Virus record (IMG/VR): IMGVR_UViG_3300029889_000001
Location: 1 to 64,000 of that record
Direction: 5' to 3' (one strand)
DNA: 64,000 bases
Source: a virus
Part shown: one piece after another, positions 1 to 45,227 of the stretch
Layout: every line of letters starts with the position of its first letter
Position numbering within the stretch: the stretch's first letter is position 1
Program-made: the position numbers and the translations under genes
The notes under the pieces: model-generated
Seen by the model: the letters and a program-made list of their open reading frames with translations, nothing else
What the model was told of the DNA's origin: nothing
The model's database searches: none

Positions 1-2265
1 GCACGGACCATAACCCCACCCAACTCCAGGGCATCCGCCGCCGCTTGCATAGCTCGTTTGCAAAGTCGCGCTGTGCTTGTAAAGCGTTCCTCCGCTCACT
101 ACACAGCCACCACTAGTCAGCGATCCAGAAGACGGCGTACAAGTGACCGTTCCGCCTGAGCCACCAGGATTGGCTGAGTAACTACCATCGTCGCTTACGT
201 CGTTAAGCATGTAGTACGGATAGGTCGCCAGCAGGTAGTTTCCGGCCGGGATGATGCAGGTTCCCCCAAGAGTCTTCGCTATTGCGTCGGCTGCACAGGC
301 ATTGAAGGCCGGTACATTGTCCGTGCCCCACTCAATGCTAAAGTTACCCGTGTTTGCGGCTGTCTTACTAAGTGTCACTTGCGTGGCTGAGATATAAGCC
401 GTGATCTCAGCTACGGCTGGCGTCGTAGCAAACGGCGTAAAAGCATCGAAGTAAGGCTGGAAAGTGACGTACTTCCCCACCGCTGCCGTAGTAAACGCGC
501 AGGTCGAGCAAGTCAGTGTCGTGCTACTGGCGGTCAAGCTCGCTACCAGATACCCGGATAGCGGCTGCTTGTCGGCTACTGCCCCGTAGTTGACCACGTT
601 GTAGTAGACTGCACAGCCTGTTCCGCCAGTTGTAACTTGCCCGCCCGTAGATGCGTTACTGATCTGCAAACAATCAGGACCGCCGCTGGAAGGAGCAATG
701 CCTGGTGCTGTAATGCTGGTAACGGCGCTATTGCCCAAGGTCACTTGATTGTTGGCGGTGATTGTAGCACCGTGACCCACGGCTGTGCTGTTTGTATAGC
801 CGTCCGCATTAGCCGTAGCGGCGGAACCGAGGTACGTGTTGTAAGTTCCCGTTTGTAGCGCAGGTGTTCCATTTCCGGCAATCGCTCCGATGGCGACGTT
901 ATAGGTTCCTGTAGTGTTAGCCACGAGAGCGCCGTTACCTACCGCCGTATTTTCACCACCGACGCTCGACCCGCCATACACACCATTGAGTGAGTTGTAC
1001 CCAACTGCCGTGTTTCCCGATGCTGTGGTTGGGTTTGTAAGCGCACTGTCACCTATGGCGACGTTGTAGCCTCCAGTCGTATTCCTGTACAGTGCTCCTT
1101 CACCCACGGCAGTGTTAAACCCGACGCCTGTGTCAAAAGTCAGAGTGAAAGCGCCAGCGGCAGTATCTTCCTGGCCAGTCACCATATTTTGCAAGGCTTC
1201 GTATCCAATTCCAGTGTTAGTGACACCCGTCGTATTAGCGTTGAGAGACTGATAGCCGAGGGCGGTGTTATAACTGCCGGTCGTATCTGCAATTAGAGCG
1301 GATTGTCCACTTGCGGTATTATAATTTCCTGTCGATGCTGTCGGCAGCGACCCACCGACATTTGCATTCCCCGATCCAAACCAGTTCACCCCAGTAGGGA
1401 TATTGAGCGCACCAGTAGGAGAGAGCGTTGCCGGACCGGGGTTGCCTGTGGTGGTAAGGGAGATGAGATTGCCGCAAAGCTGCATGGTCCCATCCCCAGC
1501 AAGACAATACTCCGCGTCCTTGATCCCGCTCCACAGAGCCAGAATGTCACCGTAAGTCGGAGTCCGCCATGCGTTATTCCCACTATTTCCCACACCTATA
1601 GTATTAGCTCCGGGATAGATCATGCCGCCACCGCCCGCTATCCAATCCGTAACAGTTAGTGGAGTTGTGTAAACAAGCGGATAAATACCACCCGACTTAA
1701 CAATGTCGTACCCTACTCCTGTCGCTGCAAAGAAAGTAATCTGCCCGTTTACAGTTGTTTGGTAAGGGTTTGTCAGCGGCGTGTTGGCTGCGTCTTTGTA
1801 TATCGTAGCCTTGATTGGAATTAACGAAGTAACAACCGTAGCTGTTCCTGAGCAAGTGGCAGTTCCGCTCGTAAGTGTAGCTGTGGTTGGTGCTGTCGGA
1901 TATATCCCTACTCCGGGAGGTGTAATAGAAAATGCTGTCCCTCCAGCTATTGTATTTATTCCAGTCAACGCAATCACTCCCGATCCGCTAGGACCGCCTC
2001 CAAGAAATGTTGCATTGCAAGTCTGACCAATATTTCCGGTAATTGTTCCTCCGCTCGTATAGGATGCACTGGAAACCTGACCCACACCGTCTAAGTACAC
2101 TGTCACAGTACAGTACGGAATAATCCCCTGTAGCTTATTCGTGCTATTCAATCCTGAAGTTGTAGCCGAAGTTGCCCCTTGGTCGCAAAATCCCGAATAC
2201 GCAGCGGTCTGTGTATGAGCCGCGATAGGAAACAAAAGCGCCAAAAGTAAGAGAAATCTTTTCAT
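1..2265 (-). CDS. Tail fibre/tailspike with YadA-like repeats and pectate-lyase-like beta-helix (partial)
   Basis: The frame is open from an ATG at 2265 to the left window edge (at least 755 residues), so the C-terminus is missing. A GAGGT ribosome site precedes the start. Residues 3-17 are hydrophobic and look like a signal peptide, which is odd for a virion protein made in the cytoplasm. About residues 310-510 are repeats of the YadA/Hep_Hag head type (N-T-A-x-G-x-x-A-L separated by NTTG). Near residue 555 comes NYGAVAD followed by a GGTCIIPAGNYLL stretch, the usual N-terminal signature of a pectate-lyase-3 right-handed beta-helix as found in receptor-binding tailspikes. It is the last gene visible in the leftward head/tail cassette. 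Receptor binding or polysaccharide degradation is inferred from domains only. Confidence 0.8.
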   Translation of the reverse strand, partial: MKRFLLLLALLFPIAAHTQTAAYSGFCDQGATSATTSGLNSTNKLQGIIPYCTVTVYLDGVGQVSSASYTSGGTITGNIGQTCNATFLGGGPSGSGVIALTGINTIAGGTAFSITPPGVGIYPTAPTTATLTSGTATCSGTATVVTSLIPIKATIYKDAANTPLTNPYQTTVNGQITFFAATGVGYDIVKSGGIYPLVYTTPLTVTDWIAGGGGMIYPGANTIGVGNSGNNAWRTPTYGDILALWSGIKDAEYCLAGDGTMQLCGNLISLTTTGNPGPATLSPTGALNIPTGVNWFGSGNANVGGSLPTASTGNYNTASGQSALIADTTGSYNTALGYQSLNANTTGVTNTGIGYEALQNMVTGQEDTAAGAFTLTFDTGVGFNTAVGEGALYRNTTGGYNVAIGDSALTNPTTASGNTAVGYNSLNGVYGGSSVGGENTAVGNGALVANTTGTYNVAIGAIAGNGTPALQTGTYNTYLGSAATANADGYTNSTAVGHGATITANNQVTLGNSAVTSITAPGIAPSSGGPDCLQISNASTGGQVTTGGTGCAVYYNVVNYGAVADKQPLSGYLVASLTASSTTLTCSTCAFTTAAVGKYVTFQPYFDAFTPFATTPAVAEITAYISATQVTLSKTAANTGNFSIEWGTDNVPAFNACAADAIAKTLGGTCIIPAGNYLLATYPYYMLNDVSDDGSYSANPGGSGGTVTCTPSSGSLTSGGCVVSGGTLYKHSATLQTSYASGGGCPGVGWGYGPC

Positions 2266-30293: not shown

Positions 30294-30544
30294 TATTTTC
30301 TCCCGCCGCACCACCACTCACCCATCGTGCTGCAATCTATCGCCCCACATGCACGGCATTGGCGATCTCTATTTCCGGTGTCCACGAAGTCATGCTCGTT
30401 GAACTGCCCTGTACCGCCGCACCTATGGCAATGAACCTTTCCCATGCCACCTAATGCTAATGTCGAAATTCCCACCGAACGAGCCTTGAGCACAATCGTT
30501 ACTTGCCCAGTCCCATCGCAACTCTCGCACTTCACTGTGCTCAT
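30293..30544 (-). CDS. DnaJ-type Cys-rich (CxxCxGxG) protein, 83 aa
   Basis: ATG at 30544 gives ATGA coupling. Two C-x-x-C-x-G-T-G repeats (KCESCDGTGQ, HCHRCGGTGQ) plus QCRACGAIDC match the cysteine-rich domain of DnaJ, but no J-domain is present here. A zinc-binding chaperone-like or regulatory role is possible. Confidence 0.7.
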   Translation of the reverse strand: MSTVKCESCDGTGQVTIVLKARSVGISTLALGGMGKVHCHRCGGTGQFNEHDFVDTGNRDRQCRACGAIDCSTMGEWWCGGRK

Positions 30545-30864
30545 CCCTTGACTCCTAAAATCGTCTGACAATAATGAATATCAACTTTATCCAGTTGCCG
30601 GTAAATATCCATCACATCCATTTCCGGGTAGGCGAAGGTGTGAATTAACCTCACAATTTCAGGAATCGCCTCCGAAACGTGGCCTGTGATTGTATTGCGG
30701 TACGACCAATTTTCCGGCGACAAATAAAACAGCGTCTCCCCCGGCGTAATAACCCCGCCCGCACATCTCCACCCACCCAAAGGCGGCAGGACGTAAATCT
30801 TCCGCGCAGCCTCAGCCGCCAAAGCGCCGCCCAATAATCCGAAAAATCCGCGCCGTGAAATCAT
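30541..30864 (-). CDS. Protein with Tat-like signal peptide, 107 aa
   Basis: Residues 3-18 read SRRGFFGLLGGALAAE, a twin-arginine (S-R-R-x-F-x) signal followed by a hydrophobic core. The mature part has PPLGGWRCAGG, a motif I have seen in other phage proteins. Helices near the C-terminus. If exported, it would be an unusual phage-encoded Tat substrate; the motif could also be coincidental. Confidence 0.6.
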   Translation of the reverse strand: MISRRGFFGLLGGALAAEAARKIYVLPPLGGWRCAGGVITPGETLFYLSPENWSYRNTITGHVSEAIPEIVRLIHTFAYPEMDVMDIYRQLDKVDIHYCQTILGVKG

Positions 30865-40439: not shown

Positions 40440-40551
40440 TGAGATGTGAAAGTGTTGTATCAACGCTTGGGAGAGCGTTAAACCGAACTCAGAGAATTCT
40501 ACAAATCTCCAGAGGATCGGAGAGCGTAGCGAAAAGGGAGAGGGAAAGATC

Positions 40552-41502
40552 ATGGCAGTTGAATTTGCAAACGAAACAACGAAGCGGGCCTGTGCGCTCT
40601 ACAGCGATTGGCCTGAGAACATCCTTATCGTGCCGGAACTGAATGGTCGGCATGAGCATACGGATGTGGAAACACTGGCAGCCGACATTGCCAAGAACGG
40701 GCAGCTTGTCCCGGTTATCTGCCGGAAAAACGATCAAGGCTTGCCGGTCCTCGTAGCTGGACATCGCCGCTACAGGGCTATATGCCTGTTGAACGAGCGC
40801 AACCCCGAACAGCCTATGCGCGTGAAGTTTGAATACGCGGCTGTCACTGAGGTTGAGGCTTTCAGCATGGCAATCCGGGAAAACCGCAACCGGAAAGACG
40901 TTTCCCCGATTGACGATTGCGCCAACATTATCACCCTGCGCAAGCGTTTCCAGTTCACCGATGAAGACATTGCGACCATCTATTTTCCCGAAGCAAAGAC
41001 GGATGAGGAAAAGGCTGAGGCTCTGCGTTACGTCAAACAGCGTGCCTCACTTGTGGAACTCGCTCCCGAAGCCGCCGATGCCGTAAGGGAAGGGCGCGTT
41101 AAGCTCACCGCCGCTGTGGGTCTTGCCAAACTCACCAAGGATCAGCAGAGGGAAAAGGTGTCCAGACCTGGACGGGTCAAGGTCAGTGACGTGGCGAAGA
41201 AGTCAAAGGCAAAGCCGCAACCCGCTGAGGCTCCGGCTCCGATTGAAACCGCTCCTGCTCCGGCTCCTGCTCCGCAACCCGCCAACGGCAAGGGCAACGG
41301 AAAGCACGTTGACAAGGATTCCGATGCCCACAAGCTGCGGACATTTTCTTTGAGCCTGAACGATTTGCTCAAGGATGTTGAGCCTGCGGACCTTACCAAT
41401 CCCGATGTGGAATGGGTGTCCGTGTCCGCTCTGAAACTCCTGGCGCTCTCACATCTTGTCAACAAGGCAACCAGCGCGAATAACGGGGATGTCAAGTTCT
41501 AA
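40552..41502 (+). CDS. ParB/RepB-like partition protein, 316 aa
   Basis: Motifs of the ParB N-domain: GRHEHTDVETLAADIAKNGQ, VLVAGHRRYRAICLL and IRENRNRKDVSPIDDC. Then an HTH-like middle and a long Ala/Pro-rich linker (PAEAPAPIETAPAPAPAPQ) followed by a helical end. No ParA is seen in the window. Phages use such ParB proteins for replicon maintenance or gene control. Strong SD (GGGAGAGGG) upstream. Confidence 0.8.
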   Translation: MAVEFANETTKRACALYSDWPENILIVPELNGRHEHTDVETLAADIAKNGQLVPVICRKNDQGLPVLVAGHRRYRAICLLNERNPEQPMRVKFEYAAVTEVEAFSMAIRENRNRKDVSPIDDCANIITLRKRFQFTDEDIATIYFPEAKTDEEKAEALRYVKQRASLVELAPEAADAVREGRVKLTAAVGLAKLTKDQQREKVSRPGRVKVSDVAKKSKAKPQPAEAPAPIETAPAPAPAPQPANGKGNGKHVDKDSDAHKLRTFSLSLNDLLKDVEPADLTNPDVEWVSVSALKLLALSHLVNKATSANNGDVKF

Positions 41503-41516
41503 GGGAGAGGGCTGTC

Positions 41517-42527
41517 ATGGAACACTTGAACTCTGTGCGGGCGGCGCTGAGAGGCTCCGCCCCTGTAGTCGCAATTCCTGTGCCCGGTCATGCGCCCGTC
41601 TGTATCCGAGCAAAACTGCTCAAGGGCGCATTGAAGGGCGTCACGATTGATTCTGTGGAGTTGACAGAGACTCGTTGGCTTAAAATCAAAGGCCATGCGG
41701 GAAACGTCCACACATCTTGCTCTCTCACTCCTATCTCTCGCTATGACGCGCTGAAAGCTATCAGTGAGTGGTCCTACCGCGAACGGCAGAAGCGGAAGGT
41801 TATCGCTTTGAAGGGTGTCCTATCCGCCGCAGAGCAACGGGCGCTCAAGTTAAAACAAGCGGAGCAAGCCGGTATCGCTGAATTGATAGAGGCGCGGAAA
41901 GTTGAGGCTGAAATCCTGTCCAGAGCAACCGTCTGCCCCGTCCTAACGCCTGTAAACCCGGAAAGGCGTCAAGACATCATCGAATTCTATGCGGCCTTTA
42001 GGCGTCAACGTGACATCAGGAAACGCGCCTCTGTGATTCGCTGGACACTGGCAAAGCTGAGGAAAGAGAAAGCCGCGATGGTCAAGAACCAATGCGAGTA
42101 CGAAGTAACTTACGGCTATGGTCGCCGCCGCAAGCATCTCAAGAGCAAGAAACTCGTACTCCGCAACCCAAAGAACGCGGTGAAGTATGCGGCTCTCATC
42201 TACCAGATCGGGGAACTCGAAAAGCAATATGAGAGTCTTTCGCTCCGCGAGTGGGTTAGTTATTCCTGGCAATGTGAAGACGGCGAGAGAAAAGGCTACT
42301 GGCGCGATTCTTGGATTACCAAACACCCAAAGGAACAAACATACACCGTATCGCGTTCCTGGCGCAATTGTTACATTCCAGAGCCGGAGCAAGTTGATGA
42401 AAATGGCGAAGTGTATCTGACTGGAATCAAATTGCTGGCATGGCGGCTCAAGAACGCACGGGCTGACATACGGGCTTTGACTCCACCGGAAGATGAGGAA
42501 ACCACTCAGGAACAGATCGCTGCTTGA
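41517..42527 (+). CDS. Hypothetical basic helical protein, 336 aa
   Basis: Central Lys/Arg-rich helices (SYRERQKRKVIALKG and ERRQDIIEFYAAFRRQRDI) and a Tyr/Trp-rich C-terminus. A DNA-associated function seems likely from charge and its position after ParB, but no family was recognised. The stop TGA is inside a TTGATAGGAG box. Confidence 0.6.
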   Translation: MEHLNSVRAALRGSAPVVAIPVPGHAPVCIRAKLLKGALKGVTIDSVELTETRWLKIKGHAGNVHTSCSLTPISRYDALKAISEWSYRERQKRKVIALKGVLSAAEQRALKLKQAEQAGIAELIEARKVEAEILSRATVCPVLTPVNPERRQDIIEFYAAFRRQRDIRKRASVIRWTLAKLRKEKAAMVKNQCEYEVTYGYGRRRKHLKSKKLVLRNPKNAVKYAALIYQIGELEKQYESLSLREWVSYSWQCEDGERKGYWRDSWITKHPKEQTYTVSRSWRNCYIPEPEQVDENGEVYLTGIKLLAWRLKNARADIRALTPPEDEETTQEQIAA

Positions 42528-42538
42528 TAGGAGAACAA
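42524..42538 (+). repeat. TTGATAGGAG box (stop plus SD)
   Basis: TTGATAGGAGAACAA. TGA ends the 336-aa gene, TAGGAG serves the 74-aa gene. Confidence 0.7.
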
Positions 42539-42763
42539 ATGGGCGGCAATCGCAAACATGGATTCCTGCGAGGAGCGCATCACGTTCACAATTGGTGGGA
42601 GAAACCATTCTTCTGTGACGGATGCAAGAGACAACATGGACCGAAGATTGACCGCTTCGGTATGCTTGACGGGCGCATGTTATGTTCGCGCCAGTATTAC
42701 AAAGAAGTGGACAAACAGCGAAAGCAATTTCTAGCAAAAAGTTTTGGGGAGATAACGGCATGA
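42539..42763 (+). CDS. Small zinc-binding protein, 74 aa
   Basis: ATG at 42539 (SD inside the preceding repeat box). FFCDGCKRQHG and a CSRQYYKEVDKQRKQF stretch. A zinc-binding and basic peptide. It is ATGA-coupled to the methyltransferase. Confidence 0.55.
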   Translation: MGGNRKHGFLRGAHHVHNWWEKPFFCDGCKRQHGPKIDRFGMLDGRMLCSRQYYKEVDKQRKQFLAKSFGEITA

Positions 42764-43506
42764 ACATCGACAGCGCAGTTCTTGACGTGTTGAGCAATGC
42801 CACCATGAGCGGAAACAGCCTGAAGTTGACCGGGCAGCTTAACAGGCCGCTCTACGTCATAACCAACAAAGTCCTTGAGGCCGCAGGCGGCAAGTGGAAC
42901 CGCAAGGCTCAGGCCCATGTATTCGACGGTGACGCAGCCGAGATCATGGATCAGATTATCCTGACCGGAAAAGTCTTAAACAAAAAACAGGAACTCGGAT
43001 ACTTCCCTACTCCACCCGCTGTAGTCAAAAGGCTCTTGGAATTAGCACAGATCGAACCTGGGATGCGCGTGTTGGAGCCTAGCGCCGGAACAGGAAACAT
43101 TCTTAAAGCTATTATTCCTAGCGCCGATAAGGTCGCTGTGGAAGTCAATCCTGAATTCATTCCTAAGTTGGCGCTCTGCGGCTCTGGGATATTAGTTGTC
43201 GAGGGTGATTTTCTTGCGATACCTAATGCCAGATTGCGACCGTTTGATAGGGTGGTAATGAATCCTCCCTTTGCTCCGCGTCAAGCTGACATCCGGCATG
43301 TTAACCATGCACTCACCTTTCTAAAGCCTGGGGGCCGTCTGGTAAGCGTTATGTCTTCTAGCGTGACGTTCCGTACCAATGCGCTGACTGACTCCTTCCG
43401 CTTCCGTCTCCCTGGCTTCAAAGGCACCATCGAAGCTCTGCCTGAGAATGCCTTTGCCGAATCAGGAACCAACGTCAACACCGTGATAGTCACAATGCAG
43501 AATTGA
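42760..43506 (+). CDS. N6-adenine DNA methyltransferase (NPPF type), 248 aa
   Basis: The N-terminal 70 residues form an extra domain often fused in phages. SAM motif EPSAGTGN (106-113) precedes NPPF (168-171), the gamma-like order, unlike the Dam-like enzyme at 25426-26070. It may protect DNA from restriction or mark replicated DNA. No cognate endonuclease was seen. Confidence 0.85.
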   Translation: MNIDSAVLDVLSNATMSGNSLKLTGQLNRPLYVITNKVLEAAGGKWNRKAQAHVFDGDAAEIMDQIILTGKVLNKKQELGYFPTPPAVVKRLLELAQIEPGMRVLEPSAGTGNILKAIIPSADKVAVEVNPEFIPKLALCGSGILVVEGDFLAIPNARLRPFDRVVMNPPFAPRQADIRHVNHALTFLKPGGRLVSVMSSSVTFRTNALTDSFRFRLPGFKGTIEALPENAFAESGTNVNTVIVTMQN

Positions 43507-43514
43507 GGATCACT

Positions 43515-43922
43515 ATGAAACTTGTCCTATCGCTTTTCGTCTTCGCCTGTGTACCAGCATGGTCTCAGGCCGTTAAGCCAGCACTGCAACCCGTCCACTA
43601 CGCCCTCACGCAAGGACAGCATGGCACCGTCCGCGTAGTTCCTCTGGCCTTAGCTGGCGAATATGATGGCAAGCTAGGTCCGCTGCACATCCGGCTCCAC
43701 CTGCGCGTCACTGACCAAGGGGAATTGGAAGGCTCACTCGACGGCAACGGCGCAACCGGAATCAAACTGGCACGTATCCAAACCGATTACCGCAAGCTGT
43801 CTTTCATTGTCCCTGCGCTCACAGCCGCTTGGGAAGGCTCAGTCAACCCCGATGGCTCCTTGACCGGCACATGGCATCAGGCTGGCGCAGAGGACCAACC
43901 GCTCAATTTGTCTAAAAGGTAA
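43515..43922 (+). CDS. Secreted beta-domain protein, acidobacterial-type, 135 aa
   Basis: ATG at 43515 (after GAGG). Signal peptide MKLVLSLFVFACVPAWSQA. The mature part matches the pattern A-G-E-Y-x-G-x-L-G-P-L-x-I-R-L-H-L, D-G-E-L-x-G-S-L and G-T-W-x-Q-x-G that I know as the N-terminal domain of secreted hydrolases in Acidobacteriota and Bacteroidota. Here it is alone, with no hydrolase. It was probably acquired from a host and gives a host clue. Confidence 0.65.
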   Translation: MKLVLSLFVFACVPAWSQAVKPALQPVHYALTQGQHGTVRVVPLALAGEYDGKLGPLHIRLHLRVTDQGELEGSLDGNGATGIKLARIQTDYRKLSFIVPALTAAWEGSVNPDGSLTGTWHQAGAEDQPLNLSKR

Positions 43923-43932
43923 GCGAACCGTT

Positions 43933-43948
43933 TTGATAGGAAACCAAA
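43933..43948 (+). repeat. TTGATAGG intergenic box, copy
   Basis: TTGATAGGAAACCAAA between the secreted protein and the 99-aa gene, the best match to the consensus. Confidence 0.7.
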
Positions 43949-43964
43949 AACGAAAGGAAATCCG

Positions 43965-44264
43965 ATGACTAATAAAACATGGATCGCTTCTTTCATTGGA
44001 ATGGTTATTCTCTTTGCATGTCTTCTGTGCATAGCGTCTCAACCATCCGCCGTTACCCTCTACCTGCCCAACGCAGAGCAAGGCTCTATGCCGCTCTGCA
44101 TCTCCAATCGGGGACACTCCAACGTCAACATTCCTAGCGGACCCGTCCTACGGCCCGGAGAGAGCGTTACAGCAGCCGTGGTCGCCGACTTCAACTGGGG
44201 GTTTACTACTCCTACGCCAACCAATGAACGTGTGGACGTTGACTGCATCGTGATTGCAGAGTAA
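43965..44264 (+). CDS. Secreted/membrane-anchored protein, 99 aa
   Basis: Residues 5-27 are hydrophobic (ASFIGMVILFACLLCIA), a signal anchor. The exported part has beta strands and two Cys (MPLCISNRG, VDVDCIVIAE) that may form a disulphide. Two adjacent exported proteins (43515 and this) suggest an envelope-directed function. Confidence 0.6.
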   Translation: MTNKTWIASFIGMVILFACLLCIASQPSAVTLYLPNAEQGSMPLCISNRGHSNVNIPSGPVLRPGESVTAAVVADFNWGFTTPTPTNERVDVDCIVIAE

Positions 44265-44321
44265 GGGATTAACGCAACCGCACCCCTGAGCGTTACAGGA
44301 AAGCCTGGGAGGGCTAGGACA

Positions 44322-44897
44322 GTGGAGATCACAACCAAAACATTTCAGGAATTCATTGCCGACCAGAAAGACAATTTCAGCATCGTCGTTCTAGGCGCTG
44401 GCGCTCCGCTCGAAGAGTGGGTCAACGGGATCAACGGGGAGTTGAAAGAATCCTCCATCACCTCAGCGGAGAATTGCTTTACCAGAGCCTACACGCTCTC
44501 AGATAACGTGCTAGGAGACAAGGGCCGCTGTGACTTGGTACTCGTATTCGATCCTGACGCTAAGCCGAACATGGGCAAGATGGCTCTCTGGCGGATCGGG
44601 TGGAACGGCTGCATCGGCTGGACAGACGACTTCATTGCCAATCACGGCGCTGACTATGGCTATGCCACTGCCGAAGAAGACGACATTGAAGAGGACGAAT
44701 CGAAAACCACGTCCAAACCGTTTGTACAGTTAAGCGGAGAGGATGGCAATGCTTTCTTCATCATCGGGCGCTGTGGTAAAGCCTTGAAGAACGCAGGACA
44801 GGCTGACAAGGCCAAGGAATTCACAACCAAAGCGTTCGGCGCTGGCAGCTACGATGAAGTCCTGCGGCTGGCAATGGAGTATTGTGACGTTGCCTAA
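44322..44897 (+). CDS. Conserved phage/plasmid-type protein, 191 aa
   Basis: GTG start at 44322 with GGGAGG upstream. The C-terminal ~60 residues (GNAFFIIGRCGKALKNAGQA then a SYDEVLRLAMEYCDV end) match a domain I know from phage and plasmid proteins of unknown function. The N-terminus is alpha/beta. Confidence 0.65.
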   Translation: MEITTKTFQEFIADQKDNFSIVVLGAGAPLEEWVNGINGELKESSITSAENCFTRAYTLSDNVLGDKGRCDLVLVFDPDAKPNMGKMALWRIGWNGCIGWTDDFIANHGADYGYATAEEDDIEEDESKTTSKPFVQLSGEDGNAFFIIGRCGKALKNAGQADKAKEFTTKAFGAGSYDEVLRLAMEYCDVA

Positions 44898-44901
44898 CTG
44901 T

Positions 44902-44918
44902 TTGATAGCGAACTAAAC
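44902..44918 (+). repeat. TTGATAG intergenic box, copy
   Basis: TTGATAGCGAACTAAAC just after the 191-aa gene. Confidence 0.55.
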
Positions 44919-44939
44919 CATTCACCGGGAGGAATGACA

Positions 44940-45227
44940 ATGATTAACTGGAATATCAGCAATGCCGATTTCAAACTCATTGTCCAGATCGCAGAGCGCA
45001 TCGAGTCAGATATTCCAAATTATCCTGACGACCGCCGCACAATGATTATGGACCTCAACGGTTGCCACTCAAACGGATGCCCACTGCAATTGGAAGAACT
45101 GCTCACGGCAGATAGCTCTGACTTCACCCACGACATATACGGCATCCGTCGCCACATCGACCGCACGACAGGCAAGTTGCAAGAGTGCTTTGTTCCTCGC
45201 CACGCACAGCCAGAGGTGACGGCATGA
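44940..45227 (+). CDS. Hypothetical protein, 95 aa
   Basis: The second ATG (44940) is favoured since GGGAGGA is 7 nt upstream; the first at 44934 is too close. A helical/acidic small protein with CHSNGCPL. ATGA-coupled to the next gene. Unknown. Confidence 0.55.
   Translation: MINWNISNADFKLIVQIAERIESDIPNYPDDRRTMIMDLNGCHSNGCPLQLEELLTADSSDFTHDIYGIRRHIDRTTGKLQECFVPRHAQPEVTA

Follow-up and report, generated by a model that had tools for sequence, protein, structure and literature searches.

The phage and its likely host

To our knowledge, only a few acidobacterial phages have been described, and these are almost unstudied. Among the closest described systems are Tunturi_1 and Tunturi_2 (PP887698, PP885685), two phages of Tunturiibacter psychrotolerans (Acidobacteriota) that are 63 kb in size and are reported to lack tRNA genes (PMC11924767). 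Here, we analyzed a window of 64 kb, the whole stretch of DNA under study, which is part of a 73,458-base virus record. This record is a piece of the IMG/VR contig IMGVR_UViG_3300035490_000050 (hereafter G001; 136,454 bases), with 100% and 99.997% identity across two long blocks. The ends of G001 overlap by about 64 bases, which points to a closed or permuted genome with a length of about 136.3 kb. In contrast to the Tunturi phages, this phage has a genome of about 136 kb and carries 31 tRNA genes, which lie outside the window at about 89.7-102 kb of G001 and one of which was called tRNA-SeC by ARAGORN. Also outside the window, at 79-84 kb of G001, there is a row of ORFs that by eye look like glycosyltransferases, together with a UDP-galactopyranose mutase look-alike.

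The best cultured relatives of the TerL protein were those of Tunturi_1 and Tunturi_2 (7e-69, 27% over 97%), while the next record was matched at 1e-8. Ten of the 222 ORFs of the phage matched Tunturi_1, eight of them in collinear order, and the shared terminase-portal-capsid-tail module showed 25-55% identity. When TerL was searched in 396 Acidobacteriota genomes, a single weak and partial match was obtained (27%, 3.6e-12) and no close provirus was found, so the host assignment draws no support from a close provirus. Judged from these sequence comparisons, this is a large soil phage whose host is likely a member of the Acidobacteriota. The exported protein P0001 described below, which the original prediction had offered as a clue to the host, proved a fair one that was confirmed independently by the relatedness of the structural module to that of Tunturi_1, and it ties this 136-kb soil phage to a host in a concrete way.

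A 1,581-aa protein of the structural module (window 1-2265, minus strand; G001 40471-45216) starts with a signal peptide, MKRFLLLLALLFPIAAHTQTAAY. Export would be unusual for a virion-module protein. The conserved start of about 60 residues is common to ORF12 of Tunturi_1 (55% over residues 1-60), the rest of ORF12 being unaligned, and it also occurs in G404, G408, G400 and G412 (42-86%).

Two exported-type genes in a variable slot

The early-type block of the phage (33257-50147, plus strand) holds a ParB-like gene, a DNA methyltransferase gene, a serine recombinase gene and two small adjacent genes on the plus strand, P0001 (43515-43922) and P0002 (43965-44264). P0001 encodes an exported-type protein of 135 aa whose single barrel is homologous to the one that comes first in acidobacterial serine hydrolases, and P0002 encodes an orphan protein of 99 aa with an N-terminal hydrophobic helix at residues 3-24. 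Both ORFs were found where the original prediction had placed them, each with a ribosome-binding site, GAGGA for P0001 and AAGGAA upstream of P0002. The P0001 site shares bases with the stop codon of the preceding methyltransferase gene, which groups P0001 with the methyltransferase and not with lysis genes. P0001 has the highest GC content among the 22 early genes (0.571), and its stop codon follows directly on the barrel. A consensus scan turned up neither a promoter nor a terminator in the vicinity of P0001 and gave fewer sites than shuffles did. The only other copy of P0001 that we found was identical and belonged to the same phage.

Read by eye, the N-terminus of P0001, MKLVLSLFVFACVPAWSQA, shows the classic n, h and c regions of a signal peptide (residues 1-19, 43515-43571, plus strand), with S-Q-A ahead of the likely cut. 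Among 222 ORFs chosen mechanically from the whole phage, P0002 ranked second and P0001 sixth in N-terminal hydrophobicity. Of the two signals originally predicted, that of P0001 reads as a classic one, and the hydrophobic segment of P0002 may be either a signal or an anchor. Elsewhere in the window, a 107-aa ORF on the minus strand (30541-30864) begins MISRRGFFGLLGGALAAEAA, which resembles a twin-arginine signal. An exported protein of a phage might be a virion or tail component that serves adhesion, and the 1,581-aa structural-module protein of the same phage, which starts with a signal peptide, speaks for such a role. However, P0001 is part of the early block, which runs on the opposite strand and also holds the methyltransferase and the ParB-like gene, and not of the structural module, and we regard a virion role as the least probable of the readings weighed here.

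The slot that holds P0001 and P0002 is bordered on the left by the gene of an N6-type DNA methyltransferase (42763-43506, plus strand; Pfam N6_Mtase, 3.5e-7) and on the right by an early gene (44322-44897, plus strand) whose product matches phrog_1933 at its C-terminus (5.6e-17). In the related phages G404 (134 kb) and G412, both the methyltransferase (64-65%) and the conserved gene before it, at 41517-42527 (52-53%), are retained and are followed by different ORFs, and G412 also retains the right-hand border gene (68% over residues 127-191). In G409, the gene at 41517-42527 is kept (54%) and no methyltransferase match was found. Neither P0001 nor P0002 was detected at E 1 in any of 15 related viral records, many of which are fragments that possibly fall short of the slot. 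Given that three relatives carry other genes at the slot, the pair represents cargo that is either recent or variable. As is typical of a moron, the pair is an addition between genes that are conserved in relatives lacking it, in this case G404 and G412.

Relatives of P0001

A tblastn search of 72,556 plasmid records gave the best match of P0001 in Acidisarcina polymorpha (Acidobacteriota; 46.7%, residues 46-134, E 3e-16), which is far beyond chance, and the hydrolase-associated beta domain named in the original prediction is therefore real. The matched protein is annotated as a 'serine hydrolase domain-containing protein' (WP_161557720.1) and carries two barrels ahead of the enzyme. The next plasmid matches, on two Caballeronia (Pseudomonadota) plasmids (38%, 4e-8), showed the same tandem-barrel architecture. 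A scan of genome contigs with P0001 alone as the query returned no relatives, while the scan with a three-sequence alignment returned two (L017 and L018), both from Acidobacteriaceae MAGs and 45-48% identical to P0001, whose enzyme parts are PF00144 at 3.4e-56 and 5.6e-58. Thus, the best matches of 43515-43922 were acidobacterial in plasmids and genome contigs alike, and not in unrelated phyla, a cross-phylum statement that covers the plasmid collection and the one genome-contig scan with hits. A plasmid-borne alpha/beta hydrolase of Bacteroides matched the Acidisarcina domain only (35.8%). Of the 'acidobacterial/bacteroidetal' type assigned earlier, the acidobacterial half is borne out by the best matches and the Bacteroidota half is not; on these alignments the latter label reflects distant kinship only.

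At a threshold of 1e-5, P0001 alone matched six of the 396 Acidobacteriota genomes, and a five-sequence profile did better in the acidobacterial family to which G002 belongs, where 62 of the 200 genomes searched carried the barrel domain, with 108 matches by hand count. This secreted domain occurs either on its own or joined to hydrolases of at least two kinds. No Pfam model for it was found when P0001 and 25 domain relatives were scanned. DUF6287 gave the best Pfam score among the 25 relatives, in four of them (0.0022); FTR_C and T2SSN scored weakly and under their cut-offs and were rejected. P0001 itself matched nothing above chance in Pfam, PHROGs, NCBIfam, PADLOC or the PDB sequences, and no significant match was found in any phage record searched. 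With no Pfam family at gathering score and an end directly after one barrel, P0001 also agrees with the earlier statement that the hydrolase is missing.

Phylogeny of the barrel domain

We then placed P0001 in a domain tree of 73 rows, which are domains of the fetched loci and not all 108 matches. With a support of 95/92, P0001 stood beside ten first barrels, each from a serine hydrolase of the tandem-barrel type; the enzyme labels of the tree (SH, ABH) were taken from short motifs, with a Pfam check for L017 and L018 only. P0001 and the tandem-barrel PF00144 serine hydrolases (beta-lactamase/esterase type) of Acidobacteriaceae share an exported N-terminus (by eye) and the first barrel, and these barrels fall in the same clade. 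In contrast to these hydrolases, P0001 has neither the second barrel nor the PF00144 catalytic domain, but it carries a 25-residue linker before the barrel and a shortened conserved loop. Having neither of these two parts, P0001 is not a member of the hydrolase family but only a derived domain.

Acidobacteriaceae also encode stand-alone secreted barrels (frames of 134-198 aa), which like P0001 consist of a signal peptide, one barrel and little else, but which belong to a different clade. Eleven single-barrel host frames were fetched, and a twelfth (G213) was left out for an internal stop. Grouping P0001 with ten host single-barrel rows was rejected (p-AU 0.006); the ten included L112, which runs to a contig end so that its stand-alone status is unproven, and L120, a long branch, was excluded from the test. 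The branch of P0001 is itself long (1.03 changes per site), which makes its exact place in the tree unsure. The simplest reading of these sequence data is that the phage likely, though not certainly, acquired the beginning of a gene for a tandem-barrel hydrolase rather than a stand-alone barrel of the host. A host-derived gene had been proposed; the tree upholds this for P0001, and a host origin is not supported for P0002, for which no relative was found. Taken together, P0001 appears to be a clear example of an accessory domain captured by a phage. In the same tree, a plasmid hydrolase of Caballeronia sp. SBC2 (L005) falls within the acidobacterial clade, a placement that suggests transfer between soil bacteria of different phyla.

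Predicted fold and altered loop

The AlphaFold2 model of P0001, built from five sequences, had a mean pLDDT of 80. Most of residues 45-135 (43647-43919, plus strand), predicted as an 8-stranded beta-barrel, scored above 90, and residues 11-40 scored about 50. The linker (residues 20-44, 43572-43646, plus strand), which is absent from the aligned host homologues, was modeled as a low-confidence hairpin. Foldseek returned no match to the model at E 0.001 in PDB or among viral models. With VIA-align 2, the top match was the cyclic-dinucleotide receptor Cap15 of Yersinia (Z 11.7, 2.8 A over 95 residues), followed by the streptavidin monomer (Z 11.2, 2.4 A over 91 residues) and many avidins at Z about 10-11; a designed barrel and a dehydrogenase domain came within 1 of the Cap15 and avidin values. 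Cap15 and the avidin family thus have an 8-stranded barrel similar to the modeled one, but only 14-18% identity, and P0001 had no significant sequence match among PDB chains. We read the predicted fold as avidin-like in the sense of a shared barrel type, not of function. The avidin Pfam model was absent among the matches up to E 1 for P0001 and the 25 domain relatives.

The structural matches to Cap15 and streptavidin raise the idea that P0001 scavenges a small ligand, for example a cyclic dinucleotide or biotin. However, this is a likeness of fold only, at 14% identity and with Z values near those of the designed barrel and the dehydrogenase domain, and an hhalign comparison of the P0001 profile with an approximate streptavidin sequence aligned only 32 columns with 18.7% probability. 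Moreover, Cap15 is a CBASS effector, and no PADLOC defence model matched P0001 or P0002; of three neighbours scanned, only the methyltransferase gave matches, mostly to methyltransferase models. A cytoplasmic second messenger would also be out of reach for an exported protein. Ligand scavenging therefore seems to us very unlikely.

In the alignment of 25 domains, strands 3 and 4 are joined by a conserved loop, which for most of the sequences is D-S-x-D-Q-G-A. The aligned loop of P0001 (43740-43754, plus strand) reads D-G-N-G-A instead; it is two residues shorter and has N in the near-invariant Gln column, while the core fold residues are preserved. The loop change may mean that the partner of the family is no longer bound.

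Possible functions of P0001

We know of no ligand of the barrel in the host enzymes. The barrel precedes secreted enzymes, from which we infer that it binds something in the envelope, and an envelope function of P0001, as originally proposed, is plausible. We propose that P0001 is a moron in which the phage would have acquired the signal peptide and first barrel of a secreted acidobacterial tandem-barrel serine hydrolase, leaving out the second barrel and the enzyme, and would carry the captured gene as cargo among its early genes. Once exported, the protein would take up its fold periplasmically or extracellularly and act as a binding module devoid of catalysis. It would most likely occupy the partner of the host enzyme's first barrel, which may be a ligand on the cell surface or in the cell wall or else the host enzyme, and would thereby compete with the host enzyme or alter the envelope of the infected cell, for example by hindering superinfection. 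As a whole, this proposal stands, in our estimate, an even chance of being right. In more general terms, P0001 would be an envelope binding module, most likely an antagonist or an exclusion factor. Stand-alone barrels also occur in hosts, so that being a single barrel does not by itself point to an antagonist. A narrower version holds that P0001 is a free exported decoy against its source enzyme, with the changed loop between strands 3 and 4 as an adapted contact site, and this we consider rather unlikely. Such a decoy would represent a counter-use of a host accessory domain, and it would reveal the binding target of the host domain. Our literature search found no work tying an avidin-like barrel to a phage and a serine hydrolase, which does not prove that none exists.

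The main rival to any function is that P0001 is a passenger, a recombined fragment of a host hydrolase gene that is translated but does nothing for the phage. The loss of the enzyme and the second barrel, the alteration of the most conserved loop of the family and the absence of P0001 from every relative phage examined all fit a passenger. However, the frame is still open even though its nearest relatives are no more than 40-47% identical, and it is complete with a signal peptide, a ribosome-binding site and a stop at the barrel end, and 135 unconstrained codons would stay open with a probability of about 0.0015; the intact core fold residues also argue against a useless fragment. We therefore hold the passenger reading to be unlikely and favor the exported binding module.

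P0002 and its leader motif

AlphaFold, run on the single sequence of P0002, gave a helix at residues 3-24 and nothing reliable beyond it (pLDDT 52). This helix may anchor the protein in the membrane or may serve as a signal, either an ordinary cleaved one or one of the lipoprotein type (I-L-F-A-C). Apart from the same phage, no relative of P0002 was found in viral contigs at E 0.001 or better, and there was no significant match in plasmids or phages. In the 200 genomes of the family of G002, four matches were obtained at E 0.0017-0.0098. One of these (L109) is an antisense frame of a gene that by eye resembles a glutamine amidotransferase and was dismissed as chance, and two of the other three weak matches contain an internal stop. 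P0002 appears, from sequence, to be a second and independent exported protein in the same cargo slot.

The juxtaposition of two exported-type proteins in an early cargo slot raises the alternative that P0001 and P0002 jointly block the entry of other phages at the envelope, and genes of this kind are known to serve as periplasmic and lipoprotein exclusion factors. However, P0002 has its own leader with the motif TTGATAGGNNNYCAA, no history shared with P0001 could be demonstrated, and P0002 showed no similarity to PHROG or PADLOC families, as was the case for P0001. A joint exclusion pair is thus doubtful, though of the alternatives to the proposed binding module it is the one we would least readily dismiss. 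The presence of a separate leader and motif also means that co-regulation of P0002 with P0001 is not necessary.

The motif lies upstream of P0002 (43933-43947, plus strand) and is partly palindromic. We found six copies of it in the 136-kb G001, all on one strand, compared with two hits in total in 20 Markov controls. Among the relatives, G404 has five copies and G412 and G409 have seven each, while three others have 0-1. On the basis of its distribution and form, the motif may be an early promoter element or an operator.
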